From positions 1 to 32,286 of the forward strand of contig NW_003105469.1 of NCBI RefSeq assembly GCF_000003605.2: 32,286 nt of DNA. The letters are read 5' to 3'. This stretch comes from Saccoglossus kowalevskii (Eukaryota > Hemichordata > Enteropneusta > Harrimaniidae). How positions within the stretch are numbered: position 1 is the first letter of the stretch; every line of letters starts with the position of its first letter. Of this stretch, positions 8,936 to 32,286 are shown in pieces. The position numbers and the translations under genes are program-made. The notes beneath the pieces were generated by a model, which had not been told where the DNA came from, did no database searches, and was given only the letters and a program-made list of their open reading frames with translations.

Positions 8936-9539
8936 CGACAGCTATGTCAGTAGTGTAGTAATGACACATTCTATGTCTGTATTGTATTAATGACGACAGC
9001 TATGTCAGTAGTGTATTAATGACGACAGCCATGCCAGTAATGTATTAATGACGACAGCTATGTCAGTAGTGTGGTAATGACGACAGCTATGTCAGTAGTG
9101 TAGTAATGACGACAGCTATGTCAGTAGTGAAGTAATGACGACAGCTACGTCAGTAGTGTAGTAATGACAACAGCTATGTCAGTAGAGTAGTAATGACGAC
9201 AGATATGCCAGTAGTGTACTAGTGACCACAGCTATGTCAGTGGTGTAATAATGACGACAGCTATGCCAGTGGTATAGTAATGACAACAGCTATGTCAGTG
9301 GTGTAATAATGACAACAGCTATGCCAGTAGTGTAGTAATGACAACAGCTATGCTAGAAGTGTAGTAATGACAAAAGTTATGCTAATAGTGTAGTAATGAC
9401 AACAGCTATTTCAGTAGTGTACTAATGACAACAGCTATGCGAGTAGTGTAGTAATGACGACAGCTATGTCAGTAGTGTAGTAATGACAACAGCTATGCCA
9501 GTGGTGTAGTAATGACGACAGTTATGCCAGTAGTGTAGT

Positions 9540-11280
9540 AGTGACGACAGCTATGTCAGTGGTGTAGTAATGACGACAGCTATGTCAGTAGTGTAGTAAT
9601 GACGACAGCCATGTCAGTAGTGTAGTAATGACGACAGCTATGTCAGTAGAGTAGTAATGACGACAGCTATGTCAGTAGTGTAGTAATGACAACAGCTATT
9701 TCAGTAGTGTAGTAATGACAACAGCTATGTCAGTAGTGTAGTAATGACGACAGCTATGTCAGTAGTGTAGTAATGACGAGAGCTATGTCAGTAGAGTAGT
9801 TATGACGACAGCTATGTCAGTAGAGTAGTAATGACGACAGCTATGTCAGTAGTGTAGTAATGACAACAGCTATTTCAGTAGTGTAGTAATGACAACAGCT
9901 ATGTCAGTAGTGTAGTAATGACGACAGCTATGTCAGTAGTGTAGTAATGACGAGAGCTATGTCAGTAGAGTAGTTATGACGACAGCTATGTCAGTGGAGT
10001 AGTAATGACGACAGCTATGCCAATGGTGTAGTAATAACGACAGCTATGTCAGTGGTGTAGTAATGACAACAGTTATGCTAGTAGTGTAGTAATGACAAAA
10101 GCTATGCTAGTAGTGTAATAATGAGAAAAGCTATGCTAATAGTGTAGTAATGACAACAGCTATTTCAGTGGTGTACTAATGACAACAGCTATTCGAGTAG
10201 TGTAGTAATGACGACAGCTATGTCAGTAGTGTAGTAATGACAACAGCTATGTCAGTAGTGTAGTAATGACGACAGCCATGCCAGTAGTGTAGTAATGACG
10301 ACAGCTATGTCAGTAGTGTGGTAATGACGACAGCTATGTCAGTAGTGTAGTAATGACGACAGCTATGTCAGTAGTGTAGTGATGACGATAGCTATGTCAG
10401 TGGTGTAGTAATGACGACAGCTAAGTCAGTAGTGTAGTAATGACGACAGCTATGTCAGTAGTGTAGTAATGACGACAGCTATGTCAGTAGTGTAGTAATG
10501 ACGACAGCTATGTCAGTAGTGTAGTGATGACGACAGCTATGTCAGTGGTGTAGTAATGACGACAGCTATGTCAGTGGTGTAGTAATGACGACAGCTATGT
10601 CAGTAGTGTAGTAATGACGACAGCTATGCCAGTAGTGTAGTAATGACGACAGCTATGTCAATAGTGTAGTAATGACGACATCTATGTCAGTAGTGTAGTA
10701 ATGACGACAGCTATGTCAGTAGTGTAGTAATGACGACAGCTATGTCAGTAGTGTAGTAATGACGACAGCTATGTCAGTGGTGTAGTAGTGAGACAGCTAT
10801 GTCAGTACTGTAGTAATGACGACAGCTATGTCAGTAGTGTAGTAATGACGACAGCTATGTCAGTAGTGTAGTAATGACGACAGCTATGTCAGTAGTGTAG
10901 TAGTGAGACAGCTATGTCAGTACTGTAGTAATGACCACAGCTATGTCAGTAGTGTAGTAATGACGACAGCCATGCCAGTAGTGTAGTAATGACGATAGCT
11001 ATGTCAGTAGTGTGGTAATGACGACAGCTATGTCAGTAGTGTAGTAATGACAACAGCTATGTCAGTATTGTAGTAATGACGACAGCTATGCCAGTAGTGT
11101 AGTAATGACGACAGCTATGTCAGTAGTGTAGTAGTGAGACAGCTATGTCAGTAGTGTAGTAATGACGACAGCTATGTCAGTAGTGTAGTAGTGACGACAG
11201 CTACGTCAGTAGTGTAGTAATGACGACAGTTATGTCAGTAGTGTAGTAATGACGACAGCTATGCCAGTAGTGTAGTAGTG
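9540..11280. repeat. First copy of a tandem 1.7-kb higher-order duplication
   Basis: A block starting with GTGACGACAGCTATGTCAG, followed two units later by CAGCCATGTCAG (GACAGCC at 9604), is repeated from about 11280 (GACAGCC at 11341). Rare markers then align at an offset of 1708 bp: GTAATAATGAG 10115/11823, CTAAGTCAG 10421/12129 and GTCAATAG 10657/12365. Between the first marker and these the offset changes from 1737 to 1708, so the second copy lacks exactly one unit. This is a direct tandem duplication of about 59 units, larger than the ordinary unit-level amplification. Confidence 0.88.
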
Positions 11281-12580
11281 ACGACAGCTATGTCAGTGGT
11301 GTAGTAATGACGACAGCTATGTCAGTAGTGTAGTAATGACGACAGCCATGTCAGTAGTGTAGTAATGACGACAGCTATGTCAGTAGAGTAGTAATGACGA
11401 CAGCTATGTCAGTAGTGTAGTAATGACAACAGCTATTTCAGTAGTGTAGTAATGACAACAGCTATGTCAGTAGTGTAGTAATGACGACAGCTATGTCAGT
11501 AGTGTAGTAATGACGAGAGCTATGTCAGTAGAGTAGTTATGACGACAGCTATGTCAGTAGAGTAGTAATGACGACAGCTATGTCAGTAGTGTAGTAATGA
11601 CAACAGCTATTTCAGTAGTGTAGTAATGACAACAGCTATGTCAGTAGTGTAGTAATGACGACAGCTATGTCAGTAGAGTAGTTATGACGACAGCTATGTC
11701 AGTGGAGTAGTAATGACGACAGCTATGCCAATGGTGTAGTAATAACGACAGCTATGTCAGTGGTGTAGTAATGACAACAGTTATGCTAGTAGTGTAGTAA
11801 TGACAAAAGCTATGCTAGTAGTGTAATAATGAGAAAAGCTATGCTAATAGTGTAGTAATGACAACAGCTATTTCAGTGGTGTACTAATGACAACAGCTAT
11901 TCGAGTAGTGTAGTAATGACGACAGCTATGTCAGTAGTGTAGTAATGACAACAGCTATGTCAGTAGTGTAGTAATGACGACAGCCATGCCAGTAGTGTAG
12001 TAATGACGACAGCTATGTCAGTAGTGTGGTAATGACGACAGCTATGTCAGTAGTGTAGTAATGACGACAGCTATGTCAGTAGTGTAGTGATGACGATAGC
12101 TATGTCAGTGGTGTAGTAATGACGACAGCTAAGTCAGTAGTGTAGTAATGACGACAGCTATGTCAGTAGTGTAGTAATGACGACAGCTATGTCAGTAGTG
12201 TAGTAATGACGACAGCTATGTCAGTAGTGTAGTGATGACGACAGCTATGTCAGTGGTGTAGTAATGACGACAGCTATGTCAGTGGTGTAGTAATGACGAC
12301 AGCTATGTCAGTAGTGTAGTAATGACGACAGCTATGCCAGTAGTGTAGTAATGACGACAGCTATGTCAATAGTGTAGTAATGACGACATCTATGTCAGTA
12401 GTGTAGTAATGACGACAGCTATGTCAGTAGTATAGTAGTGAGACAGCTATGTCAGTACTGTAGTAATGACGACAGCTATGTCAGTAGTGTAGTAATGACG
12501 ACAGCTATGTCAGTAGTGTGGTAGTGAGACAGCTATGTCAGTAGTGTAGTAATGACGACAGCTATGTCAGTAGTGTAGTA
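11280..12580. repeat. Second copy of the 1.7-kb higher-order duplication, with an internal loss
   Basis: This matches 9540 to about 10690 as described for the first copy. After the GACATCT unit near 12386 several units present in the first copy (about 10700-10800) are missing, and a GTAGTATAGTAGTGAGACAG unit (12427) follows. The array then restarts with the same block head at about 12581 (GTGACGACAG ... GACAGCC near 12644). So the head occurs three times, but the third copy switches to the CACCTATTCAG type. The GTAGTATAGTAGTGAG unit recurs at 29145 (offset 16718), where domain A4 begins. Confidence 0.8.
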
Positions 12581-12735
12581 GTGACGACAGCTATGTCAGT
12601 GGTGTAGTAATGACGACAGCTATGTCAGTAGTGTAGAAATGACGACAGCCATGTCAGTAGTGTAGTAATGACGACAGCTATGTCAGTAGAGTAGTAATGA
12701 CGACAGCTATGTCAGTAGTGTAGTAATGACAACAG

Positions 12736-14300
12736 CTATTTCAGTAGTGTAGTAATGACAACAGCTATGTCAGTAGTGTAGTAATGACGACAGCTATGTC
12801 AGTAGTGTAGTAATGACGAGAGCTATGTCAGTAGAGTAGTTATGACGACAGCTATGTCAGTGGAGGAGTAACGACGACAGCTATGACAATGGTGTAGTAA
12901 TAACGACAGCTATGTCAGTGGTGTAGTAATGACAACAGTTATGCTAGTAGTGTAGTAATGACAAAAGCTATGCTAATAGTGTAGTAATGACAACACCTAT
13001 TCAGTAGTGTACTAATGACAACAGCTATGCGAGTAGTGTAGTAATGACGACCGCTATGCCAGTAGTGTAGTAATGACGACAGTTATGTCAGTGGTGTAGT
13101 AATGACGACAGCTATGCCAGTGGTGTAGTAATGACGACAGCCATGTCAGTAGTGTAGTAATTACAAAAGCTATGCTAGTAGTGTAGTAATGACAAAAGCT
13201 ATGCTAATAGTGTAGTAATGACAACAGCTATTTCAGTAGTGTACTAATGACAACAGCTATGCGAGTAGTGTAGTAATGACGACAGCTATGTCAGTAGTGT
13301 AGTAATGACAACAGCTATGTCAGTAGTGTAGTAATGACGACAGCCATGCCAGTAGTGTAGTAATGACGACAGCTATGTCAGTAGTGTGGTAATGACGACA
13401 GCTATGTCAGTAATGTAGTAAAGACGACAGCTATGTCAGTAGTGAAGTAATGACGACAGCTACGTCAGTAGTGTAGTAATGACGACAGCTATGTCAGTAG
13501 TGTAGTAATGACGACAGATATGCCAGTAGTGTAGTAGTGACGACAGCTATGTCAGTGGTGTAGTAGTGACGACAGCTATGTCAGTGGTGTAGTAATGACG
13601 ACAGCTATGACAATGGTGTAGTAATAACGACAGCTATGTCAGTGGTGTAGTAATGACAACAGTTATGCTAGTAGTGTAGTAATGACAAAAGCTATGCTAA
13701 TAGTGTAGTAATGACAACACCTATTCAGTAGTGTACTAATGACAACAGCTATGCGAGTAGTGTAGTAATGACGACCGCTATGCCAGTAGTGTAGTAATGA
13801 CGACAGTTATGTCAGTGGTGTAGTAATGACGACAGCTATGCCAGTGGTGTAGTAATGACGACAGCTACGTCAGTAGTGTAGTAATGACGACAGCTATGTC
13901 AGTAGTGTAGTAATGACGACAGCTATGTCAGTAGTGTAGTAGTGACGACAGCTATGTCAGTGGTGTAGTAATGACGACAGCTATGTCAGTAGTGTAGTAA
14001 TGACGACAGCCATGTCAGTAGTGTAGTAATGACGACAGCTATGTCAGTAGAGTAGTAATGACGACAGCTATGTCAGTAGTGTAGTAATGACAACAGCTAT
14101 TTCAGTAGTGTAGTAATGACGACAGCTATGTCAGTAGTGTAGTAATGACGACAGCTATGTCAGTAGTGTAGTAATGACGAGAGCTATGTCAGTAGAGTAG
14201 TTATGACGACAGCTATGTCAGTGGATGAGTAATGACGACAGCTATGACAATGGTGTAGTAATAACGACAGCTATGTCAGTGGTGTAGTAATGACAACAGT
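12736..14300. repeat. Long duplicated block, right copy (partner 1607 to about 3140)
   Basis: Markers align at an offset of 11129 bp with the left copy, and the right copy has gained one unit before 14355. It carries the same succession of CACCTATTCAG, CGACCGCTATGCC, AATTACAAAAG, CTATGCGAG and GTAATGTAGTAAAG units. Past the block, the GTAATGTAGTAAAG marker recurs at 14771 and 15264 (493 bp apart, exactly 17 units), a further local amplification. Confidence 0.85.
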
Positions 14301-15009
14301 TATGCTAGTAGTGTAGTAATGACAAAAGCTATGCTAATAGTGTAGTAATGACAACACCTATTCAGTAGTGTAGTAATGACAACAGCTATGCGAGTAGTGT
14401 AGTAATGACGACCGCTATGCCAGTAGTGTAGTAATGACGACAGTTATGTCAGTGGTGTAGTAATGACGACAGCTATGCCAGTGGTGTAGTAATGACGACA
14501 GCCATGTCAGTAGTGTAGTAATTACAAAAGCTATGCTAGTAGTGTAGTAATGACAAAAGCTATGCTAATAGTGTAGTAATGACAACAGCTATTTCAGTAG
14601 TGTACTAATGACAACAGCTATGCGAGTAGTGTAGTAATGACGACAGCTATGTCAGTAGTGTAGTAATGACTACAGCTATGTCAGTAGTGTAGTAATGACG
14701 ACAGCCATGCCAGTAGTGTAGTAATGACGACAGCTATGTCAATAGTGTGGTAATGACGACAGCTATGTCAGTAATGTAGTAAAGACGACAGCTATGTCAG
14801 TAGTGAAGTAATGACGACAGCTACGTCAGTAGTGTAGTAATGACGACAGCTATGTCAGTAGTGTAGTAATGACGACAGATATGCCAGTAGTGTAGTAGTG
14901 ACGACAGCTATGTCAGTGGTGTAGTAGTGACGACAGCTATGTCAGTGGTGTAGTAATGACGACAGTTATGACAATGGTGTAGTAATAACGACAGCTATGT
15001 CAGTAGTGT

Positions 15010-15870
15010 AGTAATTACAAAAGCTATGCTAGTAGTGTAGTAATGACAAAAGCTATGCTAATAGTGTAGTAATGACAACAGCTATTTCAGTAGTGTACTA
15101 ATGACAACAGCTAAGCGAGTAGTGTAGTAATGACGACAGCTATGTCAGTAGTGTAGTAATGACAACAGCTATGTCAGTAGTGTAGTAATGACGACAGCCA
15201 TGCCAGTAGTGTAGTAATGACGACAGCTATTTCAGTAGTGTGGTAATGACGACAGCTATGTCAGTAATGTAGTAAAGACGACAGCTATGTCAGTAGTGAA
15301 GTAATGACGACAGCTACGTCAGTAGTGTAGTAATGACGACAGCTATGTCAGTAGTGTAGTAATGACGACAGATATGCCAGTAGTGTAGTAGTGACGACAG
15401 CTATGTCAGTGGTGTAGTAGTGACGACAGCTATGTCAGTGGTGTAGTAATGACGACAGCTATGCCAGTGGTATAGTAATGACGACAGTTATGTCAGTGGT
15501 GTAGTAATGACAACAGCTATGCCAGTAGTGTAGTAATGACGACAGCTGTGTCAGTAGTGTAGTAATGACGACAGCTACGTCAGTAGTGTAGTAATGACGA
15601 CAGCTATGTCAGTAGTGTAGTAATGACGACAGATATGCCAGTAGTGTAGTAGTGACGACAGCTATGTCAGTAGTGTAGTAGTGACGACAGCTATGTCAGT
15701 GGTGTAGTAATGACGACAGCTATGCCAGTGGTATAGTAATGACGGGAGCTATGTCAGTAGAGTAGTTATGACGACAGCTATGTCAGTGGAGTAGTAATGA
15801 CGACAGCTATGCCAATGGTGTAGTAATAACGACAGCTATGTCAGTGGTGTAGTAATGACAACAGCTATGC
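15010..15870. repeat. Third relative of the 5836-6701 / 30580-31445 block
   Basis: The offset to the first copy is 9039 bp at AATTAC (15013), CTGTGTCAG (15546) and GCCAGTGGTATAGTAAT (15724-15740). It differs by a few substitutions, for example the GTAATGTAGTAAAG unit at 15264 and GACGGGAGC after 15740. It starts abruptly: a unit of the TATGACAATGG type near 14968 is followed within two units by AATTACAAAAG, a chimeric junction. Like the copy at 6685, it continues past GTATAGTAAT as ordinary satellite, so it is an uninterrupted counterpart of the element insertion site. Confidence 0.8.
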
Positions 15871-18800
15871 TAGTAGTGTAGTAATGACAAAAGCTATGCT
15901 AATAGTGTAGTAATGACAACACCTATTTCAGTAGTGTACTAATGACAACAGCTATGCGAGTAGTGTAGTAATGACGACAGCTATGCCAGTAGTGTAGTAA
16001 TGACGACAGTTATGTCAGTGGTGTAGTAATGACGACAGCTATGCCAGTGGTGTAGTAATGACGACAGCCATGTCAGTAGTGTAGTAATTACAAAAGCTAT
16101 GCAAGTAGTGTAGTAATGACAAAAGCTATGCTAATAGTGTAGTAATGACAACAGCTATTTCAGTAGTGTACTAATGACAACAGCTATGCGAGTAGTGTAG
16201 TAATGACGACAGCTATGTCAGTAGTGTAGTAATGACAACAGCTATGTCAGTAGTGTAGTAATGACGACAGCCATGCCAGTAGTGTAGTAATGACGACAGC
16301 TATGTCAGTAGTGTGGTAATGACGACAGCTATGTCAGTAGTGTAGTAATGACGACAGCTATGTCAGTAGTGAAGTAATGACGACAGCTACGTCAGTAGTG
16401 CAGTAATGACGACAGTTATGTCAGTAGTGTAGTAATGACGACAGATATGCCAGTAGTGTAGTAGTGACGACAGCTATGTCAGCAGTGTAGTAGTGACGAC
16501 AGCTATTTCAGTAGTGTAGTAATGACGACAGCTATGTCAGTAGTGTAGTAATTACGACAGCTATGTCAGTAGTGTAGTAGTGAAGTAGTGAGACAGCTAT
16601 GTCAGTACTGTAGTAATGACGACAGCTATGTTAGTAGTGTAGTAATGACGACAGCTATGTCAGTAGTGTAGTAGTGAGACAGCTATGTCAGTACTGTAGT
16701 AATGACCACAGCTATGTCAGTAGTGTAGTAATGACGACAGCCATGCCAGTAGTGTAGTAATGACGACAGCTATGTCAGTAGTGTGGTAATGACGACAGCT
16801 ATGTCAGTAGTGTAGTAATGACGACAGCTATGTCAGTAGTGTAGTAATGACGACAGTTATGCCAGTAGTGTAGTAATGACGAAAGCTATGCCAGTAGTGT
16901 AGTAATGACGACAGCTATGTCAGTAGTGTAGTAGTGAGACAGCTATGTCAGTAGTGTAGTAATGACGACAGCTATGTCAGTAGTGTAGTAGTGACGACAG
17001 CTACGTCAGTAGTGTAGTAATGACGACAGCTATGTCAGTAGTGTAGTAATGACGACAGCTATGCCAGTAGTGTAGTAGTGACGACAGCTATGTCAGTGGT
17101 GTAGTAATGACGACAGCTATGTCAGTAGTGTAGTAATGACGACAGCCATGTCAGTAGTGTAGTAATGACGACAGCTATGTCAGTAGAGTAGTAATGACGA
17201 CAGCTATGTCAGTAGTGTAGCAATGACAACAGCTATTTCAGTAGTGTAGTAATGACAACAGCTATGTCAGTAGTGTAGTAATGACGACAGCTATGTCAGT
17301 AGTGTAGTAATGACGAGAGCTATGTCAGTAGAGTAGTTATGACGACAGCTATGTCAGTGGAGTAGTAATGACGACAGCTATGACAATGGTGTAGTAATAA
17401 CGACAGCTATGTCAGTGGTGTAGTAATGACAACAGTTATGCTAGTAGTGTAGTAATGACAAAAGCTATGCTAATAGTGTAGTAATGACAACACCTATTCA
17501 GTAGTGTACTAATGACAACAGCTATGCGAGTAGTGTAGTAATGAGGACAGCTATGCCAGTAGTGTAGTAATGACGACAGTTATGTCAGTGGTGTAGTAAT
17601 GACGACAGCTATGCCAGTGGTGTAGTAATGACGACAGCCATGTCAGTAGTGTAGTAATTACAAAAGATATGCTAGTCGTGTAGTAATGACAAAAGCTATG
17701 CTAATAGTGTAGTAATGACAACACCTATTCAGTAGTGTACTAATGACAACAGCTATGCGAGTAGTGTAGTAATGACGACCGCTATGCCAGTAGTGTAATA
17801 ATGACGACAGTTATGTCAGTGGTGTAATAATGACGACAGCTATGCCAGTGGTGTAATAATGACGACAGCTACGTCAGTAGTGTAATAATGACGACAGCTA
17901 TGTCAGTAGTGTAGTAATGACGACAGCTATGTCAGTAGTGTAGTAGTGACGACAGCTATGTCAGTGGTGTAGTAATGACGACAGCTATGTCAGTAGTGTA
18001 GTAATGACGACAGCCATGTCAGTAGTGTAGTAATGACGACAGCTATGTCAGTAGAGTAGTAATGACGACAGCTATGTCAGTAGTGTAGTAATGACAACAG
18101 CTATTTCAGTAGTGTAGTAATGACGACAGCTATGTCAGTAGTGTAGTAATGACGAGAGCTATGTCAGTAGAGTAGTTATGACGACAGCTATGTCAGTGGA
18201 GTAGTAATGACGACAGCTATGACAATGGTGTAGTAATAACGACAGCTATGTCAGTGGTGTAGTAATGACAACAGTTATGCTAGTAGTGTAGTAATGACAA
18301 AAGCTATGCTAATAGTGTAGTAATGACAACACCTATTCAGTAGTGTACTAATGACAACAGCTATGCGAGTAGTGTAGTAATGAGGACAGCTATGCCAGTA
18401 GTGTAGTAATGACGACAGTTATGTCAGTGGTGTAGTAATGACGACAGCTATGCCAGTGGTGTAGTAATGACGACAGCCATGTCAGTAGTGTAGTAATTAC
18501 AAAAGCTATGCTAGTAGTGTAGTAATGACAAAAGCTATGCTAATAGTGTAGTAATGACAACAGCTATTTCAGTAGTGTACTAATGACAACAGCTATGCGA
18601 GTAGTGTAGTAATGACGACAGCTATGTCAGTAGTGTAGTAATGACAACAGCTATGTCAGTAGTGTAGTAATGACGACAGCCATGTCAGTAGTGTAGTAAT
18701 GACGACAGCTATGTCAGTAGTGTGGTAATGACGACAGCTATGTCAGTAGTGTAGTAATGACGACAGCTATGTCAGTAGTGAAGTAATAACGACAGCTACG

Positions 18801-19439
18801 TCAGTAGTGTAGTAATGACGACAGCTATGTCAGTAGTGTAGTAATGACGACAGATATGCCAGTAGTGTAGTAGTGACGACAGCTATGTCAGTGGTGTAGT
18901 AGTGACGACAGCTATGTCAGTAGTGTAGTAATGACGACAGATATGCCAGTAGTGTAGTAGTGACGACAGCTATGTCAGTGGTGTAGTAGTGACGACAGCT
19001 ATGTCAGTAGTGTAGTAATGACGACAGCTATGTCAGTGGTATAGTAATGACGACAGCTATGTCAGTGGTGTAGTAATGACAACAGCTATGCCAGTAGTGT
19101 AGTAATGACGACAGCTGTGTCAGTAGTGTAGTAACGACGGCAGCTATGTCAGTAGTGTAGTAATGACGACAGTTATGTCAGTAGTGTAGTATCGACGACA
19201 GCTATGTCAGTAGTGTAGTAATGACGATAGCTATGACAGTAAGTGTAGTAATGACGACAGCTATGTCAGTAGTGTAGTAATGACGACAGCTATGTCAGTA
19301 GTATTGTAATGACAACAGCTATGTTAGTAAGTGTTGTAATGACGACATCTATGTCAGTAGTGTAGCAATGACGACAGCTATGTCAGTAGTGTAGTAATGA
19401 CGACAGCTATGTCAGTGGTGTAGTAATGACGGCAGCTAT

Positions 19440-19870
19440 GTCAGTGGTGTAGTAGTGACGACAGCTATGCCAGTAGTGTAGTAATGATGACAGCTATGTC
19501 AGTAGTGAAGTAATGACGGCAGCTATGTCAGTAGTGTAGTAATGACGACAGCTATGCCAGTAGTGTAGTTTCGACGACAGCTATGACAGTAGTGTAGTAA
19601 TGGCGATAGTTATGTCAGTAAGTGTAGTAATGACGACAGCTATGTCAGTAGTGTAGTAATGACGACAGCTATGTCAGTAGTGTAGTATCGACGACAGCTA
19701 TGTCAGTAGTGTAGTAATGACGACAGCTATGTCAGTAGTGTAGTAATGACGACAGCTATGCCATTAGTGTAGTAATAACGACAGCTATGTCAGTAGTGTA
19801 GTAATGACAACAGCAATGTCAGTAAGTATAGTAATGACGACAGCTATGTCAGTAGTGTAGTATCGACGAC
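19440..19870. repeat. Family B block repeated at about 21425-21855 and partly at about 26160-26500
   Basis: Offset 1985 bp to the second copy: GAAGTAATGACGGCAGC 19507/21492, GATAGTTATG 19605/21590 and CAGCAATG 19811/21796. Offset 4735 bp from the second to the third copy: 21492/26227 and 21590/26325. The copies carry the same succession of diagnostic units with scattered substitutions (for example GTTTCGACG near 19568 against GTATCGACG). Confidence 0.8.
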
Positions 19871-20819
19871 AGCTATATCAGTAGTGTAGTATCGACGACA
19901 GCTATGTCAGTAGTGTAGTAATGACGACAGCTATGTCAGTAGTGCAGTAATGACGACAGCTATGTCAGTAGTGTAGTATCGACGACAGCTATGTCAGTAG
20001 TGTAGTAATGACGACAGCTATGTCAGCAGTGTAGTAATGACGACAGCTATGCTAGTAGTGTAGTAATAACGATCGCTATGTCAGTAGTGTAGTAATGACA
20101 ACAGCTATGTCAGTAAGTATAGTAATGACGACAGCTATGTCAGTAGTGTAGTATCGACGACAGCTATATCAGTAGTGTAGTAATGACGACAGCTATGTCA
20201 GTAGTGTAGTAATGACGACAGCTATGTCAGTAGTGTAGTAATGACAACAGCTATGTCAGTAAGTGTAGTAATGACGACTTCTATATCAGTAGTGTAGTAA
20301 TTACGACAGCTATGTCAGTAGTGTAGTAATGACGACAGCTATGCTAGTAGTGTAGTAATGACGACAGCTATGTCAGTAGTGTAGTATCGACGACAGCTAT
20401 GTCAGTAGTGTAGTGTAGTGATGACAACATCTATGTCAGTAGTGTAGTAATAACGACAGCTATGACTGCAGTGTAGTAATGACAACAGCTATGTCAGTAC
20501 GTGTAGTAATGACGACATCTATGTCAGTAGTGTAGTAATGACGACAGCTATGTCAGTAGTGTAGTATCGACGACAGCTAGGTCAGTAGTGTAGTAATGAC
20601 AACAGTTATGTCAGTAAGTATAGTAATGACGACAGCTATGTCAGTAGTGTAGTATCGACGACAGCTATATCAGTGGTGTAGTAATGACGACAGCTATGTC
20701 AGTGGTGTAGTAATGACGACAGCTATGTCAGTGGTGTAGTAATGACGACAGCTATGTCAGTAGTGTAGTAATGACGACAGCTATGTCAGTAGTGTAGTAT
20801 CGACGACAGCTATGTCAGT

Positions 20820-21365
20820 AGTGTAGTAATGACGACAGCTATGTCAGTGGTGTAGTAATGACGACAGCTATGTCAGTAGTGTAGTAGTGACGACAGCTAT
20901 GCCAGTAGTGTAGTAATGACGACAGCTATGTCAGTAGTGTAGTATCGACGACAGCTATGTCAGTAGCGTAGTAATGACGACAGCTATGTCAGTAGTGTAG
21001 TAATGACGACAGCTATGTCAGTAGTGTAGTAATAACGACAGCTATGTCAGTGGTGTAGTAGTGACGACAGCTATGCCAGTAGTGTAGTAATAACGACAGC
21101 AATGTCAGTACTGTAGTAATGACAACAGCTATGTCAGTAAGTGTAGTAATGACGACAGCTATGTCAGTAGTGTAGTAATGACGACAGCTATGTCAGTAGT
21201 GTAGTATCGACGACAGCTATGTCAGTAGTGTAGTGATGACAACATCTATGTCAGTAGTGTAGTAATAACGACAGCTATGTCAGTAGTGTAGTAATGACAA
21301 CAGCTATGTCAGTAAGTGTAGTAATGACGACATCTATGTCAGTAGTGTAGTAATGACGACAGCTA
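20820..21365. repeat. Family B block repeated at about 24040-24757
   Basis: GTAGCGTAG aligns 20963/24181 (offset 3218), while AATGTCAGTACTG aligns 21101/24493 (offset 3392). The difference is 174 bp, exactly six units, so six units were gained or lost inside one copy. From 21101/24493 the two run identically by my reading for about 265 bp until a CTACG/CTATG difference near 21365. A third, more diverged relative starts near 25835 (AATGTCACTAG). Confidence 0.8.
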
Positions 21366-24300
21366 CGTCAGTAGTGTAGTAATGACGACAGCTATGTCAG
21401 TGGTGTAGTAATGACGACAGCTATGTCAGTGGTGTAGTAGTGACGACAGCTATGCCAGTAGTGTAGTAATGATGACAGCTATGTCAGTAGTGAAGTAATG
21501 ACGGCAGCTATGTCAGTAGTGTAGTAATGACGACAGCTATGTCAGTAGTGTAGTATCGACGACAGCTATGACAGTAGTGTAGTAATGACGATAGTTATGT
21601 CAGTAAGTGTAGTAATGACGACAGCTATGTCAGTAGTGTAGTAATGACGACAGCTATGTCAGTAGTGTAGTATCGACGACAGCTATGTCAGTAGTGTAGT
21701 AATGACGACAGCTATGTCAGTAGTGTAGTAATGACGACAGCTATGCCAGTAGTGTAGTAATAACGACAGCTATGTCAGTAGTGTAGTAATGACAACAGCA
21801 ATGTCAGTAAGTATAGTAATGACGACAGCTATGTCAGTAGTGTAGTATCGACGACAGCTTCGTCAGTAGTGTAGTAATGACGACAGCTATGTCAGTAGTG
21901 TAGTAATGACGACAGCTATGCTAGTAGTGTAGTATCGACGACAGCTATGTCAGTAGTGTAGTGTAGTGATGACAAAATCTATGTCAGTAGTGTAGTAATA
22001 ACGACAGCTATGACTGCAGTGTAGTAATGACAACAGCTATGTCAGTACGTGTAGTAATGACGACATCTATGTCAGTAGTGTAGTAATGACGACAGCTATG
22101 TCAGTAGTGTAGTATCGACGACAGCTATGTCAGTAGTGTAGTAACGACGACAGCTATGTCAGTGGTGTAGTAGTGACGACAGCTATGCCAGTAGTGTAGT
22201 AATGATGACAGCTATGTCAGAAGTGAAGTAATGACGACAGGTATGTCAGTAGTGTTGTAATGACGACAGGTATGTCAGTAGTGTAGTATCGACGACAGCT
22301 ATGTCAGTAGTGTAGTAATGACGATAGCTATGTCAGTAAGTGTAGTTATGACGACCGCTATGTCAGTAGTGTAGTATCGACGACAGCTATGTCAGTAGTG
22401 TAGTAATGACGACAGCTATGTCAGTAGTGTAGTAATGACGACAGCTATGTCAGTAAGTGTAGTAATGACGACAGCTATGTCAGTAGTGTAGTAATGACGA
22501 CAGCTATGTCAGTAGTGTAGTATCGACGACAGCTATGTCAGTAGTGTAGTGTAGTGATGACAACATCTATGTCAGTAGTGTAGTAATAACGACAGCTATG
22601 ACTGCAGTGTAGTAATGACAACAGCTATGTCAGTACGTGTAGTAATGACGACAGCTATGTCAGTAGTGTAGTATGGACGACAGCTATGTCAGTAGTGTAG
22701 TGATGACAACATCTATGTCAGTAGTGTAGTAATAACGACAGCTATGTCAGTAGTGTAGTAATGACAACAGCTATGTCAGTAAGTGTAGTAATGACGACAT
22801 CTATGTCAGTAGTTTAGTAATGACGACAGCTATGTCAGTAGTGTAGTAATGACGACAGCTATGTCAGTGGTGTAGTAATGACGACAGCTATGTCAGTGGT
22901 GTAGTAGTGACGACAGCTATGCCAGTAGTGTAGTAATGATGACAGCTATGTCAGTAGTGAAGTAATTACGACAGCTATGTCAGTAGTGTAGTAATGACGA
23001 CAGCTATGTCAGTAGTGTAGTAATGACGACAGCTATGTCAGTAGTGTAGTATCGACGACAGCTTCGTCAGTAGTGTAGTAATGACGACAGCTATGTCAGT
23101 AGTGTAGTAATGACGACAGCTATGCTAGTAGTGTAGTAATGACAACAGCTATGTCAGTAAGTGTAGTAATGACGACAGCTATGTCAGTAGTGTAGTAATG
23201 ACGACAGCTATGTCAGTAGTGTAGTATCGACGACAGCTATGTCAGTAGTGTAGTGTAGTGATGACAACATCTATGTCAGTAGTGTAGTAATAACGACAGC
23301 TATGACTGCAGTGTAGTAGTGACAACAGCTATGTCAGTACGTGTAGTAATGACGACATCTATGTCAGTAGTGTAGTAATGACGACAGCTATGTCAGTAGT
23401 GTAGTATCGACGACAGCTATGTCAGTAGTGTAGTAACGACGACAGCTATGTCAGTGGTGTAGTAATGACGACAGCTATGTCAGTGGTGTAGTAGTGACGA
23501 CAGCTATGCCAGTAGTGTAGTAATGATGACAGCTATGTCAGTGGTGTAGTAGTGACGACAGCTATGTCAGTAGTGTAGTAGTGACGACAGCTATGTCAGT
23601 AATGTAGTAATAACGACAGCTATGTCAGTAGTGTAGTAATGACAACAGCTATGTCAGTAAGTGTAGTAATGACGACATCTATGTCAGTAGTGTAGTAATG
23701 ACGACAGCTACGTCAGTAGTGTAGTATCGACGACAGCTATGTCAGTGGTGTAGTAATGACGACATCTATGTCAGTGGTGTAGTAGTGACGACAGCTATGA
23801 CTGCAGTGTAGTAATGACAACAGCTATGTCAGTAGTGAAGTAATGACGGCAGCTATGTCAGTAGTGTAGTAATGACGACAGCTATGTCAGTAGTGTAGTA
23901 TCGACGACAGCTAGGTCAGTAGTGTAGTAATGACAACAGCTATGTCAGTAAGTGTAGTAATGACGACAGCTATGTCAGTAGTGTAGTATCGACGACAGCT
24001 ATATCAGTAGTGTAGTATCGACGACAGCTATGTCAGTAGTGTAGTAATGACGACAGCTATGTCAGTGGTGTAGTAATGACGACAGCTATGTCAGTAGTGT
24101 AGTAGTGACGACAGCTATGCCAGTAGTGTAGTAATGACGACAGCTATGTCAGTAGTGTAGTATCGACGACAGCTATGTCAGTAGCGTAGTAATGACGACA
24201 GCTATGTCAGTAGTGTAGTAATGACGACAGCTATGTCAGTAGTGTAGTAATGACGACAGCTATGTCAGTAGTGTAGTATCGACGACAGCTATGTTAGTAG

Positions 24301-26879
24301 TGTAGTAATTACGACAGCTATGTCAGTAGTGTAGTAATGACGACAGCTATGTCAGTAGTGTAGTGATGACGACAGCTATGTCAGTAGTGTAGTAATGACG
24401 ACAGCTATGTCAGTAGTGTAGTAATAACGACAGCTATGTCAGTGGTGTAGTAGTGACGACAGCTATGCCAGTAGTGTAGTAATAACGACAGCAATGTCAG
24501 TACTGTAGTAATGACAACAGCTATGTCAGTAAGTGTAGTAATGACGACAGCTATGTCAGTAGTGTAGTAATGACGACAGCTATGTCAGTAGTGTAGTATC
24601 GACGACAGCTATGTCAGTAGTGTAGTGATGACAACATCTATGTCAGTAGTGTAGTAATAACGACAGCTATGTCAGTAGTGTAGTAATGACAACAGCTATG
24701 TCAGTAAGTGTAGTAATGACGACATCTATGTCAGTAGTGTAGTAATGACGACAGCTATGTCAGTAGTGTAGTAATGACGACAGCTATGTCAGTGGTGTAG
24801 TAATGACGACAGCTATGTCAGTGGTGTAGTAGTGACGACAGCTATGCCAGTAGTGTAGTAATGATGACAGCTATGTCAGTAGTGAAGTAATGACGGCAGC
24901 TATGTCAGTAGTGTAGTAATGACGACAGCTATGCCAGTAGTGTAGTATCGACGACAGCTATGTCAGTAGTGTAGTATCGACGACAGCTATGTCAGTAGTG
25001 TAGTAATGACGACAGCTATGTCAGTAGTGTAGTAATGACGACAGCTATGTCAGTGGTGTAGTAGTGACGACAGCTATGTCAGTAGTGTAGTAATGACGAC
25101 AGCTATGTCAGTAGTGTAGTAATGACGACAGCTATGTCAGTGGTGTAGTAATGACGGCAGCTATGTCAGTAGCGTAGTGATGACGACAGCTATGTCAGTA
25201 GTGTAGTAATGACGACAGCTATGTCAGTAGTGTAGTAATGACGACAGCTATGTCAGTAGTGTAGTATCGACGACAGCTTCGCCAGTAGTGTAGTAATGAC
25301 GACAGCTATGTCAGTAGTGTAGTAATGACGACAGCTATGCTAGTAGTGTAGTAATGACAACAGCTATGTCAGTAAGTGTAGTAATGACGACAGCTATGTC
25401 AGTAGTGTAGTATCGACGACAGCTATGTCAGTAGTGTAGTGTAGTGATGACGACAGCTATGTCAGTAGTGTAGTAATAACGACAGCTATGACTGCAGTGT
25501 AGTAATAACGACAGCTAGGTCAGTAGTGTAGTAATGACAACAGCTATGTCAGTAAGTATAGTAATGACGACAGCTATGTCAGTAGTGTAGTATCGACGAC
25601 AGCTATGTCAGTAGTGTAGTATCGACGACAGCTATGTCAGTAGTGTAGTAATTACGACAGCTATGTCAGTAGTGTAGTAATGACGACAGCTATGTCAGTA
25701 GTGTAGTGATGACGACAGCTATGTCAGTAGTGTAGTAATGACGACAGCTATGTCAGTAGTGTAGTAATAACGACAGCTATGTCAGTGGTGTAGTAGTGAC
25801 GACAGCTATGCCAGTAGTGTAGTAATAACGACAGCAATGTCACTAGTGTAGTAATGACAACAGCTATGTCAGTAAGTGTAGTAATGACGACAGCTATGTC
25901 AGTAGTGTAGTAATGACGACAGCTATGTCAGTAGTGTAGTATCGACGACAGCTATGTCAGTAGTGTAGTGATGACAACATCTATGTCAGTAGTGTAGTAA
26001 TAACGACAGCTATGTCAGTAGTGTAGTAATGACAACAGCTATGTCAGTAAGTGTAGTAATGACGACATCTATGTCAGTAGTGTAGTAATGACGACAGCTA
26101 TGTCAGTAGTGTAGTAATGACGACAGCTATGTCAGTGGTGTAGTAATGACGACAGCTATGTCAGTGGTGTAGTAATGACGACAGCTATGCCAGTAGTGTA
26201 GTAATGATGACAGCTATGTCAGTAGTGAAGTAATGACGGCAGCTATGTCAGTAGTGTAGTAATGACGACAGCTATGTCAGTAGTGTAGTATCGACGACAG
26301 CTATGACAGTAGTGTAGTAATGACGATAGTTATGTCAGTAAGTGTAGTAATGACGACAGCTATGTCAGTAGTGTAGTAATGACGACAGCTATATCAGTAG
26401 TGTAGTATCGACGACAGCTATGTCAGTAGTGTAGTAATGACGACAGCTATGTCAGTAGTGTAGTAATGACGACAGCTATGCCAGTAGTGTAGTAATAACG
26501 ACAGCTATGTCAGTAGTGTAGTAATGACAACAGCTATGTCAGTAGTGTAGTAATGACGACAGCTATGCTAGTAGTGTAGTAATGACAACAGCTATGTCAG
26601 TAAGTGTAGTAATGACGACAGCTATGTCAGTAGTGTAGTAATGACGACAGCTATGTCAGTAGTGTAGTATCGACGACAGCTATGTCAGTAGTGTAGTGTA
26701 GTGATGACAACAGCTATGTCAGTAGTGTAGTAATAATGACAGCTATGACTGCAGTGTAGTAATGACAACAGCTATGTCAGTACGTGTAGTAATGACGACA
26801 GCTATGTCAGTAGTGTAGTATCGACGACAGCTATGTCAGTAGTGTAGTAATGACGACAGCTATGTCAGTAAGTTTAGTA

Positions 26880-27610
26880 ATGACGACAGATATGCCAGTA
26901 GTGTAGTAGTGACGACAGCTATGTCAGTGGTGTAGTAGTGACGACAGCTATGTCAGTGGTGTAGTAATGACGACAGCTATGCCAGTGGTATAGTAATGAC
27001 GACAGCTATGCCAGTAGTGTAGTAATGATAAAAGCTATGCTAGTAGTGTAGTAATAACGACAGCTATGTCAGTGGTGTAGTAATGACAACAGTTATGCTA
27101 GTAGTGTATTAATGACAAAAGCTATGCTAATAGTGTAGTAATGACAACACCTATTCAGTAGTGTACTAATGACAACAGCTATGCGAGTAGTGTAGTAATG
27201 ACGACCGCTATGCCAGTAGTGTAGTAATGACGACAGTTATGTCAGTGGTGTAGTAATGACGACAGCTATGCCAGTGGTGTAGTAATGACGACAGCTACGT
27301 CAGTAGTGTAGTAATGACGACAGCTATGTCAGTAGTGTAGTAATGACGACAGCTATGTCAGTAGTGTAGTAGTGACGACAGCTATGTCAGTGGTGTAGTA
27401 ATGACGACAGCTATGTCAGTAGTGTAGTAATGACGACAGCCATGTCAGTAGTGTAGTAATGACGACAGCTATGTCAGTAGAGTAGTAATGACGACAGCTA
27501 TGTCAGTAGTGTAGTAATGACGACAGCTATGTCAGTAGTGTAGTAATGACGACAGCTATGTCAGTAGTGTAGTAATGACGACAGCTATGTCAGTAGTGTA
27601 GTAATGACGA
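26880..27610. repeat. Satellite sub-domain A3, family A island
   Basis: A 0.7-kb island of family A units inside family B. It opens with CAGATATGCC, then GCCAGTGGTATAG and a CACCTATTCAG marker at 27148, followed by GTGTACTAATG, CTATGCGAG and CGACCGCTATGCC, and closes with plain consensus units before the GTAATAACG/CAGCAATG family B units return near 27630. Both ends are abrupt within a single unit, as expected for gene conversion or an inserted block. Confidence 0.75.
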
Positions 27611-29145
27611 CAGCTATGTCAGTAGTGTAGTAATAACGACAGCTATGTCAGTAGTGTAGTAATGACAACAGCAATGTCAGTAAGTATAGTAATGACGACA
27701 GCTATGTCAGTAGTGTAGTAATGACGACAGCTATATCAGTAGTGTAGTAATGACGACAGCTATGCTCAGTAGTGTAGTAATGACAACAGCTATGTCAGTG
27801 GTGTAGTAGTGACGACAGCTATGTCAGTAGTGTAGTAGTGACGACAGCTATGCCAGTAGTGTAGTAATGACGACAGCTATGTCAGTAGTGTAGTATCGAC
27901 GACAGCTATGTCAGTAGCGTAGTGATGACGACAGCTATGTCAGTAGTGTAGTAATGACGACAGCTATGTCAGTAGTGTAGTAATGACGACAGCTTCGTCA
28001 GTAGTATAGTAATGACGACAGCTATGTCAGTAGTGTAGTAATGACGACAGCTATGCTAGTAGTGTAGTAATGACGACAGCTATGTCAGTAGTGTAGTATC
28101 GACGACAGCTATGTCAGTAGTGTAGTGTAGTGATGACAACATCTATGTCAGTAGTGTAGTAATAACGACAGCTATGACTGCAGTGTAGTAATGACAACAG
28201 CTATGTCAGTACGTGTAGTAATGACGACATCTATGTCAGTAGTGTAGTAATGACGACAGCTATGTCAGTAGTGTAGTATCGACGACAGCTATGTCAGTAG
28301 TGTAGTAACGACGACAGCTATGTCAGTGGTGTAGTAATGACGACAGCTATGTCAGTGGTGTAGTAGTGACGACAGCTATGCCAGTAGTGTAGTAATGATG
28401 ACAGCTATGTCAGAAGTGAAGTAATGACGACAGCTATGTCAGTAGTGTTGTAATGACGACAGCTATGTCAGTAGTGTAGTATCGACGACAGCTATGACAG
28501 TAGTGTAGTAATGACGATAGCTATGTCAGTAAGTGTAGTTATGACGACCGCTATGTCAGTAGTGTAGTATCGACGACAGCTATGTCAGTAGTGTAGTAAT
28601 GACGACAGCTATGTCAGTAGTGTAGTAATGACGACAGCTATGCCAGTAGTGTAGTAATGACAACAGCTATGTCAGTAAGTATAGTAATGACGACAACTAT
28701 GTCAGTAGTGTAGTAATGACGACAGCTCGGCCAGTAGTGTAGTAATGACACCAGCTATGTCAGTAAGTATAGTAATAACGACAGCTATGACTGTAAAGTA
28801 GTAATGACGACAGCTATGTCAGTAAGTGTAGTAATGACGACATCTATGTCAGTAAGTGTAGAAATGACGACAGCTATGTTAGTAGTGTAGTAATGACGTC
28901 AGGTATGTCAGTAGTGTAGTATCGACGACAGCTATGTCAGTAAGTGTAGTTATGACGACCGCTATGTCAGTTGTGTAGTAATGACGACAGCTATGTCAGT
29001 AGTGTAGTAATAACGACAGCTATGTCAGTAGTGTAGTAATGACAACAGCTTTGTCAGTAAGTATAGTAATGACGACAGCTATGTCAGTAGAGTAGTATCG
29101 ACGACAGCTATATCAGTAGTGTAGTAACGACGACAGCTATGTCAG
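27610..29145. repeat. Satellite sub-domain B3 (family B units)
   Basis: Family B markers return: GTAAGTATAG, GTATCGACG, the 34-bp unit near 28110-28135, GACTGCAGTG at 28176 and GTACGTGTAG. The stretch about 28680-28940 repeats material from about 4370-4620 (CAGCTCG and TGACGTCA units). The right boundary is at 29145, where the GTAGTATAGTAGTGAG unit shared with 12427 begins. Confidence 0.75.
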
Positions 29146-31445
29146 TAGTATAGTAGTGAGACAGCTATGTCAGTACTGTAGTAATGACGACAGCTATGTC
29201 AGTAGTGTAGTAATGACGACAGCTATGTCAGTAGTGTGGTAGTGAGACAGCTATGTCAGTAGTGTAGTAATGACGACAGCTATGTCAGTAGTGTAGTAGT
29301 GACGACAGCTATGTCAGTGGTGTAGTAATGACGACAGCTATGCCAGTAGTGTAGAAATGACGACAGCTATGTCAGTAGTGTGGTAATGACGACAGCTATG
29401 TCAGTAGTGTAGTAATGACGACAGCTATGTCAGTAGTGTAGTAATGACGACAGCTATGCCAGTAGTGTAGTAGTGAGACAGCTATGTCAGTAGTGTAGTA
29501 ATGACGACAGCTATGTCAGTAGTGTAGTAGTGACAACAGCTACGTCAGTAGTGTAGTAATGACGACAGCTATGTCAGTAGTGTAGTAATGACGACAGCTA
29601 TGCCAGTAGTGTAGTAGTGACGACAGCTATGTCAGTGGTGTAGTAATGACGACAGCTATGTCAGTAGTGTAGTAATGACGACAGCCATGTCAGTAGTGTA
29701 GTAATGACGACAGCTATATCAGTAGAGTAGTAATGACGACAGCTATGTCAGTAGTGTAGTAATGACAACAGCTATGTCAGTAGTGTAGTAATGACGACAG
29801 CTATGTCAGTAGTGTAGTAATGACGAGAGCTATGTCAGTAGAGTAGTTATGACGACAGCTATGTCAGTGGAGTAGTAATGACGACAGCTATGCCAATGGT
29901 GTAGTAATAACGACAGCTATGTCAGTGGTGTAGTAATGACAAAATCTATGCTAGTAGTGTAGTAATGACAAAAGCTATGCTAATAGTGTAGTAATGACAA
30001 CACCTATTTCAGTAGTGTACTAATGACAACAGCTATGCGAGTAGTGTAGTAATGACGACAGCTATGCCAGTAGTGTAGTAATGACGACAGTTATGTCAGT
30101 GGTGTAGTAATGACGACAGCTATGCCAGTGGTGTAGTAATGACGACAGCCATGTCAGTAGAGTAGTAATGACGACAGCTATGTCAGTAGTGTAGTGATGA
30201 CGACAGCTATGTCAGTAGTGTAGTAATGACGACATCTATGTCAGTAGTATAGTAATGACGACAGCTATGTCAGTAGTGTAGTAATGACGACAGCCATGTC
30301 AGTAGTGTAGTAATTACAAAAGCTATGCTAGTAGTGTAGTAATGACAAAAGCTATGCTAATAGTGTAGTAATGACAACAGCTATTTCAGTAGTGTACTAA
30401 TGACAACAGCTATGCGAGTAGTGTAGTAATGACGACAGCTATGCCAGTAGTGTAGTAATGACGACAGTTATGTCAGTGGTGTAGTAATGACGACAGCTAT
30501 GCCAGTGGTGTAGTAATGACGACAGCCATGTCAGTAGAGTAGTAATGACGACAGCTATGTCAGTAGTGTAGTGATGACGACAGCTATGTCAGTAGTGTAG
30601 TAATGACGACATCTATGTCAGTAGTATAGTAATGACGACAGCTATGTCAGTAGTGTAGTAATGACGACAGCTATGCCAGTGGTGTAGTAATGACGACAGC
30701 CATGTCAGTAGTGTAGTAATTACAAAAGCTATGCTAGTAGTGTAGTAATGACAAAAGCTATGCTAATAGTGTAGTAATGACAACAGCTATTTCAGTAGTG
30801 TACTAATGACAACAGCTATGCGAGTAGTGTAGTAATGACGACAGCTATGTCAGTAGTGTAGTAATGACAACAGCTATGTCAGTAGTGTAATAATGACGAC
30901 AGCCATGCCAGTAGTGAAGTAATGACGACAGCTATGTCAGTAGTGTGGTAATGACGACAGCTATGTCAGTAGTGTAGTAATGACGACAGCTATGTCAGTA
31001 GTGAAGTAATGACGACAGCTACGTCAGTAGTGTAGTAATGAAGACAGCTATGTCAGTAGTGTAGTAATGACGACAGCTATGCCAGTAGTGTAGTAGTGAC
31101 GACAGCTATGTCAGTGGTGTAGTAGTGACGACAGCTATGTCAGTGGTGTAGTAATGACGACAGCTATGCCAGTGGTATAGTAATGACGACAGCTATGTCA
31201 GTGGTGTAGTAATGACAACAGCTATGCCAGTAGTGTAGTAATGACGACAGCTGTGTCAGTAGTGTAGTAATGACGACAGCTACGTCAGTAGTGTAGTAAT
31301 GACGACAGCTATGTCAGTAGTGTAGTAATGACGACAGATATGCCAGTAGTGTAGTAGTGACGACAGCTATGTCAGTAGTGTAGTAGTGACGACAGCTATG
31401 TCAGTGGTGTAGTAATGACGACAGCTATGCCAGTGGTATAGTAAT
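29145..31445. repeat. Satellite sub-domain A4, abutting the mobile element
   Basis: The terminal family A stretch is a patchwork: 29145 onward matches 12427 onward (offset 16718), about 29377-29794 matches 8518-8935 (offset 20859), and 30580-31445 is identical to 5836-6701 (offset 24744). Units show no increased degeneration towards the array end. This differs from the usual decay at satellite edges, and suggests the edge is recent and was created by an insertion into the interior of the array. Confidence 0.8.
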
Positions 31446-31566
31446 TATTCTCTCAGTTCAAACAAAAACACAACAACAGTTTTGGCGGATAATTAATTTC
31501 GTTTTATTCACTAACGAAACAATGAGTTTTGCTGATCATGTTCGCCAGCCAACAAGACAAAAAGGC
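31443..31566 (-). repeat. Direct repeat, outer copy (B2), at the satellite junction
   Basis: This is identical by eye to 31963-32086. Its left base is the first base of non-satellite sequence; AAT at 31443-31445 could belong to either side (satellite GTAGTAAT or repeat AATTATTC). With the extra shared island at 31574-31586, B2 would span about 144 bp. In the split-direct-repeat model it is the terminal repeat at the element's 3' end. Confidence 0.92.
31503..31508 (-). terminator. Poly(A) signal AATAAA in B2, near the element's end
   Basis: This is the same hexamer as at 32023-32028, located about 60 bp from the satellite junction on the minus strand. Use of this copy would give a transcript containing B1, A2 and part of B2. 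The call rests on the hexamer alone. Confidence 0.35.
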
Positions 31567-31766
31567 AGAATCACAAAACTGAAAATAACATCAAGATGCA
31601 ATAATAACTAACAAAACTAGCAAGTAAATCATCAATCGATGCACGCGAAAAAAAACTAATAAAGAAAAGCAAAATAACGATTCGAGAAAAAGCAAATAAA
31701 ATTTAAAAAAATAAAATAAAACATTCACTTGCGAAAAAGCCCACCTCGGACAACAAGCAATGAAAA

Positions 31767-31782
31767 GGGTGGGTGGGTGGGG
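31767..31782 (+). other. Four-run G-quadruplex motif GGGTGGGTGGGTGGGG
   Basis: Four G runs are separated by single T loops, the class known to form very stable parallel quadruplexes. It is on the plus strand, which is the template strand for the element's minus-strand transcript, so the RNA would carry the C-rich complement. It stands out in otherwise A/T-rich sequence. Folding is inferred from the motif. Confidence 0.8.
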
Positions 31783-31844
31783 AAATAGAAAAGTTCACAG
31801 TTGACTTGAAAGCAACAAAGGACGCAACTAACTAACAATACAAA

Positions 31845-31856
31845 ATTGCGCATGCG
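31845..31856. promoter_or_regulatory. NRF-1-like element, copy 1 (imperfect)
   Basis: ATTGCGCATGCG followed by TG contains the palindrome CGCATGCG and matches the NRF-1 consensus YGCGCAYGCGCR at all but one position. It is one of two copies 46 bp apart in putative A2. Its regulatory role is inferred. Confidence 0.4.
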
Positions 31857-31890
31857 TGAAACAAACAATTTGCATAAATACAACAAGACA

Positions 31891-31904
31891 ATTGCGCATG
31901 CGCG
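31891..31904. promoter_or_regulatory. NRF-1-like element, copy 2 (perfect consensus)
   Basis: TGCGCATGCGCG at 31893-31904 matches the NRF-1 consensus YGCGCAYGCGCR fully and includes the 10-bp palindrome GCGCATGCGC. It shares ATTGCGCATGCG with copy 1. If A2 duplicates the element's promoter region A1, these sites are candidates for promoter activation; no start site can be seen. Confidence 0.45.
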
Positions 31905-31962
31905 CAGTGCAAATAATAAAATTCACGGGAATAATTAACCATTTTGAAATACAAAATTACAC

Positions 31963-32086
31963 AATTATTCTCTCAGTTCAAACAAAAACACAACAACAGT
32001 TTTGGCGGATAATTAATTTCGTTTTATTCACTAACGAAACAATGAGTTTTGCTGATCATGTTCGCCAGCCAACAAGACAAAAAGGC
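31963..32086 (-). repeat. Direct repeat, inner copy (B1)
   Basis: These 124 bp match 31443-31566 without a difference that I can see (offset 520), from AATTATTCTCTCAG to CAAGACAAAAAGGC. After an indel of unequal sequence, a further shared stretch CAAAACTGAAAAT lies at 32107-32119 and 31574-31586 (offset 533). B1 may therefore begin right at the recombinase stop codon and measure about 157 bp. It lies 32 bp or less downstream of the recombinase gene in the minus-strand direction. Confidence 0.92.
32023..32028 (-). terminator. Poly(A) signal AATAAA in B1, downstream of the recombinase
   Basis: The plus strand reads TTTATT, so the minus strand carries AATAAA about 90 nt after the recombinase stop codon. 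The repeat structure places a second copy at 31503-31508 in B2. Either could define the 3' end of the element's transcript; in split-repeat elements the transcript must reach beyond B1, so the distal copy is as plausible. Confidence 0.4.
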
Positions 32087-32118
32087 CAAAATAATAAAAA
32101 AACCGCCAAAACTGAAAA

Positions 32119-32286
32119 TCAAAGAGTCAGTGAGAGATTCCCTTCCTCAATTGCAGTGCGTATGCAGGCAGCAGTACGGAGACGATGGCCGAACGACGAT
32201 TCCATATACAATAAGTACGCTTGAGAAGACCAATCTCCTTGAGCTTTGACTGCATCCGGCTCAGCCCCTGATTGGAAGGCAAATGA
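32119..32286 (-). CDS. Tyrosine recombinase, C-terminal fragment (partial, enters from right edge)
   Basis: The minus strand is open from the window edge (32286) to a TGA at 32121-32119, giving 55 visible residues. The visible part starts with SFAFQSG, the segment that in this family follows the HxxRRGG catalytic motif, which must lie just outside the window. It continues with an IK-like helix segment (AVKAQ), then GDW at residues 17-19 (the position of the second catalytic H/W) and two tyrosines, 24 and 27. By spacing from GDW, Tyr27 in AYLLYM is the likely nucleophile that forms the 3'-phosphotyrosine bond with DNA. The tail SSFGHRLRTA resembles the C-terminal helix of DIRS/Ngaro/Crypton recombinases. 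The product would integrate the element's circular DNA. The catalytic end appears intact. The domain call is strong; the exact element class rests on the repeats beside it. Confidence 0.85.
   Translation of the reverse strand, partial: SFAFQSGAEPDAVKAQGDWSSQAYLLYMESSFGHRLRTAACIRTAIEEGNLSLTL

Follow-up and report, generated by a model that had tools for sequence, protein, structure and literature searches.

A probable Ngaro-type tyrosine recombinase retrotransposon derivative lacking reverse transcriptase in a 29-bp satellite array of Saccoglossus kowalevskii

Near the right end of contig NW_003105469.1 of the hemichordate Saccoglossus kowalevskii, a 29-bp satellite that extends up to position 31445 gives way to the edge of an inserted element, and the locus raises the question of what was inserted, how much of it is present and how it entered the array. 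The window analysed is this whole contig (32,286 nt, designated C42), one of 4830 contigs in the 572-Mb assembly; the array that served as target DNA occupies 7..31445 (TRF: 1082 copies, 89% matches). An earlier note, made from these letters alone, had read the insertion as a tyrosine recombinase (YR) retrotransposon with split direct repeats. We consider it highly likely that the element is a Ngaro-type YR retrotransposon, in a derivative form without reverse transcriptase (RT), with the layout A1-YR-B1-A2-C-B2 and a length of about 1.85 kb, 115 bp of which are unseen.

The minus strand is the sense strand of the element. Read from the right contig edge, it begins with the 3' end of the YR gene (32286-32119; 55 aa, stop codon at 32119-32121), followed after only 32 bp by B1 (31963..32086), A2 (31782..31962), a spacer, C (31567..31781), and B2 (31443..31566), beyond which lies satellite. 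B1 and B2, the inner and outer copies of a direct repeat, are 124 nt long, 100% identical and spaced by 520. The array end overlaps the outer repeat by three bases, AAT (31443..31445), which are common to the satellite, the end of B2 and the end of A1 and mark the putative crossover region at the insertion site. A search of the assembly with the 124-bp repeat returned at least seven matches on at least five contigs; all seven adjoined stretches of A or C belonging to the same element, and none was found apart from it. A chance origin of the repeat was rejected on the strength of the perfect 124-nt pair and of the element's own sequence beside every match. These results bear out the earlier note's reading of the perfect repeat, the array edge and the YR C-terminus as a YR retrotransposon with split repeats in satellite, as well as its claims that the outer repeat meets the array edge by more than coincidence (they agree within three bases) and that the repeat is tied to the element. 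Its description of the locus as repeat-unique-repeat was correct as to the pair, but the 396 bp between the repeats are a composite of A2, which recurs as A1, and C, which is absent from A1. No inverted terminal repeats were detected in 31380-32286, the only inverted pairs being 22 nt at 82%. A phage origin was also considered and rejected, there being no match in 50,697 phage records.

The other edge of the insertion is very probably on contig C2252 of the same genome, which consists of the 29-bp satellite throughout, apart from the element. C2252 carries a 181-bp copy of A2, 100% identical, which constitutes A1, and satellite lies directly beyond it; the junctions read ..GTAAT|TATTCTC in the window and ACACAAT|GACGAG on C2252, so that the satellite resumes with one of the two hexamers (GACGAC or GACGAG) near which the earlier note had placed it. 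The note had also predicted that A1 would be a copy of 31567-31962. A1 exists, but covers only 31782-31962, the other 215 bp being C; throughout, A1 copies match the predicted interval only from its position 216, 217 or 218 to 396. On C2252, A1 leads without a gap into the YR gene, and the contig stops within it. Both contigs therefore end inside YR, and the piece missing between them is about 115 bp and in frame by hand count, a length taken from one other copy, on C4612 (L011). When gag, RT, RNase H and YR queries were compared with C2252, only YR matched; the gag and RT/RNase H genes expected beyond the right edge are not present between A1 and YR.

The two contigs also share sequence peculiarities. 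Among eight loci, seven matched by script and the eighth (C2176) read by eye, the A variant ATAGAAAAG (versus ATCGAAAAG) was private to the A2 of C42 and the A1 of C2252. In the window copy, B1 and B2 alike have an extra A (AAAAACACA) that does not occur in C3976, C2176 or C4612 (C4409 was not read). The A variant and the extra A suggest that the arms of the window copy were synthesised jointly, which is what the model of reverse transcription cited for split repeats in an excerpt of PMC6681497 implies. The arms differ at 0/184 positions in A (three junction bases included) and 0/124 in B, compared with 4/185 and 4/123 in C3976; arm identities for A and B are 95% and 96% in L025, and 98% and 92% in L026. 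By this measure the window insertion looks the youngest of the four copies.

How the element entered the array can be read from the satellite itself. Joining the final 232 bp of the C42 satellite to the first 232 bp on C2252 gave a sequence equal to an uninterrupted stretch of the window, 6470..6933 on the plus strand (right part from 6702), at 464/464 positions. Since the joined flanks equal uninterrupted satellite, target bases were neither duplicated nor lost. When the real left flank was paired with right flanks drawn at random in phase, 0/300 controls reached 99%; with two random flanks, 2/300 reached 99% and none 100%. Flanks joined at 406+406 bp found their best match, 99.3%, at the same place in the array. 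This empty site is a local paralogue, because over 4.9 kb the likeness to the 6702 region drops to 91% for the right flank and 89% for the left. Ngaro elements are not known to cause target-site duplication, and this insertion agrees with that. The satellite acts as a built-in control for the insertion: an exact copy of the site without the element is present in the array, and by comparison with it the scarless arrival of a YR retrotransposon can be followed at single-base resolution. The satellite (window 1-31442) also has a longer-range order of its own; 406 bp at 31040-31445 are exactly repeated at 6296-6701, and of 200 stretches of 464 bp that were sampled, 19.5% recur in another part of the array at no less than 99%.

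In tyrosine recombinases, the HxxR and Tyr residues have a catalytic role. The 55-aa piece in the window, taken alone, had no match in Pfam or among solved structures; the same 55 aa end the longer YR of another copy, L017, which matched a PHROG integrase (E=1.2e-5) and was the only one of six proteins to match in the PHROGs scan, an NCBIfam scan matching 0/6. L017 contains GHSFRRGG, and AYLLYM is found both in L017 and in the window; the HxxR stretch of the window copy falls within the unseen 115 bp. An excerpt of PMC8547959 names HxxR and Tyr for tyrosine recombinases, and to judge by these motifs the family encodes such an enzyme, with HxxR and a predicted catalytic Tyr. The single YR fragment of C2252 reached Cre in solved structures only at E=0.011, along with related entries; profile searches of solved structures gave one unrelated match (E=0.14) for the YR alignment and none for the RT alignment. 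Both visible pieces of YR have an open frame. Relative to sister copies, the proportion of synonymous differences (pS) is 0.78-0.81, with synonymous sites near saturation, and that of nonsynonymous differences (pN) is 0.18-0.27 (0.24 and 0.18 for the two pieces against L025, 0.27 against L022 and 0.23 against L026).

Relatives in the same genome carry the genes that the window copy lacks. The copy on C3976, of about 4.9 kb, has a gag-like open reading frame (ORF) behind A1 and a run of 3405 N across its middle. In a sister lineage, about 65% identical to the window lineage in YR, L025 and L026 display A1-gag-RT-RNase H-YR-B1-A2-C-B2 on one strand, with matches to RVT_1 (E=1.7e-5 and 4.3e-5) and RVT_3 (E=0.0016); YR overlaps or directly follows RNase H. 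The gag-like ORFs of the two lineages are 57% identical over 136 aa, and the protein has, by eye, a Cys/His-rich N-terminus. Split repeats of the form A1 ... B1-A2-B2 with the extra spacer C were found in the window plus C2252, C3976, L025 and L026, C measuring 215 bp in the window, about 136 bp in L025 and about 101 bp in L026; a repeat search of parts of L020, L022 and L023 yielded no A1/A2 pair reaching 60 nt. Because sister copies carry gag-RT-RNase H-YR, and C3976 a gag-like ORF behind A1, the missing RT, which the earlier note would have taken to refute its reading, refutes a complete element at this site and leaves the family standing. The observation made in that note was correct, and its interpretation was right in kind and not in full, as A1 is shorter than predicted and the predicted gag and RT are missing at the site.

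Could C42 and C2252 instead hold two separate insertions in similar arrays, the window copy being full-length with its gag and RT in an assembly gap? Both contigs do stop inside YR with the intervening sequence missing, and a gag-bearing copy is known from C3976; against this, the joined flanks reproduce 464 bp of satellite exactly, the private A variant unites C42 and C2252 to the exclusion of the other loci, the contig ends are compatible with an in-frame gap of 115 bp, and no further contig with the element beside the 29-bp satellite was seen among the matches listed and fetched. We hold this account to be very unlikely, although the local extent of the empty-site match and the lack of a family match for the YR of C2252 raise its likelihood slightly and lower slightly that of a single RT-less insertion. 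A Crypton-like DNA transposon that was never a retrotransposon would agree with YR being the sole gene in what can be seen of the window copy, but is made extremely unlikely by the split A/B direct repeats, by the gag-like ORF in close copies and by RT and RNase H in the sister lineage. Several points weigh against the reading that we prefer, that of one insertion of an RT-less Ngaro-type derivative. The 115 bp between the contig ends are unseen, and their length comes from a single other copy; the empty site matches locally; and the YR piece of C2252 has no match in Pfam, PHROG or NCBIfam. For RT, RNase H and YR alike, the matches in Pfam fall under the score cut-offs set by Pfam itself, the frames of L025 and L026 are broken in places, and L026 has 50 N at the YR end. 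RT and RNase H upstream of YR are present in the sister lineage and absent from the window copy, while C3976, C4612 and C370, of the window lineage, read N where RT would lie, leaving it unseen there. The Ngaro placement, finally, is drawn from the layout of the element.

Judged by structure rather than by a tree, the window copy is best described as a recent insertion from a Ngaro-type family in a form without RT, a known kind of element with variant details. The Ngaro layout (DIRS order) is given as A1-[ORFs]-B1A2B2 in excerpts of PMC8547959 and PMC9210276, and is also described in the part of PMC4157794 consulted. The family resembles it in its direct A/B repeats, split as A1 ... B1-A2-B2, in the order gag-like, RT/RNase H and YR in the sister lineage, and in that a methyltransferase was not found; it differs in having a spacer C of about 101-215 bp between A2 and B2, while the window copy lacks gag, RT and RNase H and, because only 32 bp separate YR from B1, has no SGNH hydrolase ORF between them. 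PAT elements, of the DIRS group, carry a methyltransferase domain according to the same part of PMC4157794. Split direct repeats and the Cys/His-rich gag-like N-terminus are reminiscent of PAT, but the methyltransferase of PAT and DIRS1 was not found here: of the 35 ORFs listed for L025 and L026 of the sister lineage, 9 were scanned, and none gave such a family at E<=0.1. On that ground, the structure favours Ngaro over PAT, and the Ngaro/PAT-type B1-A2-B2 end proposed in the note holds as to its split repeats, but not as to the extra C between A2 and B2. DIRS1 differs further, its terminal repeats being inverted, with an internal complementary region, whereas those described here are direct. 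SIRE of Trypanosoma cruzi, a short derivative of VIPER that keeps the two ends of VIPER plus about 30 bp of its own (PMC6681497, in excerpt), offers a parallel for a short derivative with both terminal regions kept and the interior dropped; the window copy, unlike SIRE, retains an open YR frame. Cryptons, for which an excerpt of PMC3212892 describes terminal direct repeats of 4-6 bp, no long ones, and integration thought to proceed via a circle, are comparable in having YR as the sole gene and in the circle-mediated integration that may apply here, but not in the 124-bp and 181-bp direct repeats or the RT-bearing relatives.

The ends of the element suggest how it may integrate. At the B1|A2 junction, the window lineage has GAATAATTGTG and the sister lineage GAATAATTGTT, a core common to both although A and B otherwise hardly align. 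Five B2 ends were read: all have AATAA, four GAATAA (C42, C2176 end, L025 and L026) and C3976 TAATAA. A1 starts at or beside GTG or GTTG, with ATT just before the start in 7/11 cases (C2252, C3976, C2662, L020, L025, L027 and L032) and without it in C370, L021, L026 and L028, a twelfth (L023) being cut short. This pattern fits a crossover by the recombinase in a short shared core. In the proposed cycle, the family would make a circle of complementary DNA (cDNA) whose ends meet at the B|A junction, with GAATAATTGTG as core; YR would cross this junction with a target sharing a few bases, here AAT, and the element would land without target duplication or deletion. The internal B1-A2 copy would renew the terminal A1 and B2 in each cycle, and RT for the window copy may have been supplied in trans, or lost after insertion. 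On C4612, the order is YR-B-A-gag, as expected of a circle junction or a tandem integration.

The RT-less form could have arisen by splicing, strand transfer or plain deletion. The 3' edge of A continues into a gag leader, C, other sequence (C2662) or, in the window copy, YR. Three different A1-YR joints are present in the genome, 3/14 of the YR-bearing loci with readable sequence before YR (C2252, L020-L032), and two of them are at the 3' edge of A (C2252 and C2264). The C2264 copy (L032) joins this edge to the middle of YR, where the two matches overlap by 3-4 nt, and the C4518 copy (L028) joins the YR start to a point about 21 nt short of the edge. RT or RNase H matches precede YR in nine of the 14 loci; in L021 an RT stretch was recognised by eye, and L030 shows neither. 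The joint of the window copy was not found in any other copy within the visible sequence of the genome. At the A2/C edge, the window carries a four-run G tract, GGGTGGGTGGGTGGGG, at 31767..31782 on the plus (antisense) strand, and 2000 dinucleotide shuffles of 31443-32286 produced no four-run tract on either strand. Across nine A2 edges, at least four G runs were present in five (C42, C3976, C2176 end, L021 and L026), three runs in L022, an imperfect tract in C4409 and none in L024 and L025.

One account has DNA synthesis halting at this G-rich tract and the A end transferring elsewhere on the template. The tract at 5/9 edges in two lineages, the joints at the edge of A in C2252 and C2264, and the YR-B-A-gag order of C4612, which such a transfer to A1 would produce, speak for it, but the other four edges fall short of four perfect runs and the C4518 joint is displaced from the edge; we regard it as doubtful. 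Alternatively, the RT-less copy would be a retrotransposed, spliced YR messenger in which a leader ending at the 3' edge of A was joined to a YR exon. The joint is exactly at that edge, GT follows it in three gag-bearing copies (C3976, C370 and C4612), and a pyrimidine tract and CAG before YR are kept in 4/4 aligned sister copies (L020, L022, L023 and L024); yet the donor, C|GTTTTC, is weak against the consensus, the CAG of the sister copies is 13 nt upstream of the aligned joint, and the C2264 joint, inside YR coding sequence with its overlap, is not predicted by splicing. This origin seems unlikely. In a broader proposal, which we think distinctly unlikely, the retrotransposon would lose gag and RT time and again through a programmed joint, placed where A ends on its 3' side and marked by the G-rich tract; the resulting mini-elements, with the window copy as a recent example, would keep attachment ends and recombinase and could move as a DNA circle on their own YR. 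If true, this would take a retrotransposon part of the way back to a DNA transposon of the Crypton type. The route of reverse transcription in Ngaro elements is poorly understood, and spacer C, G-rich at its edge, together with the repeated A1-YR joints, offers concrete test points for it.

Some further arrangements were noted among the relatives. Between RNase H and YR, L020, L022 (~4472-4510), L023 and L024 have GGTAA(C/T)TT, a pyrimidine tract and CAG|GTAGTC, a stretch that resembles a 3' splice site or an intron of very small size. On C4612 (L017:2476-3006), a gag-like stretch is followed by 3-5 copies of a minisatellite of about 102-108 bp, with no RT match after it. An A module on C2662 (L016:4210-4475) has AT-rich repeats (GATTTTAATTTC) in place of gag or C, perhaps as a solo or rearranged end. 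On C1646 (L021:1530-5430), a partial A1 and masked sequence precede, by eye, an RT stretch fused to a truncated YR, after which come about 30 bp like a B end and an A2 with five CCCA units.

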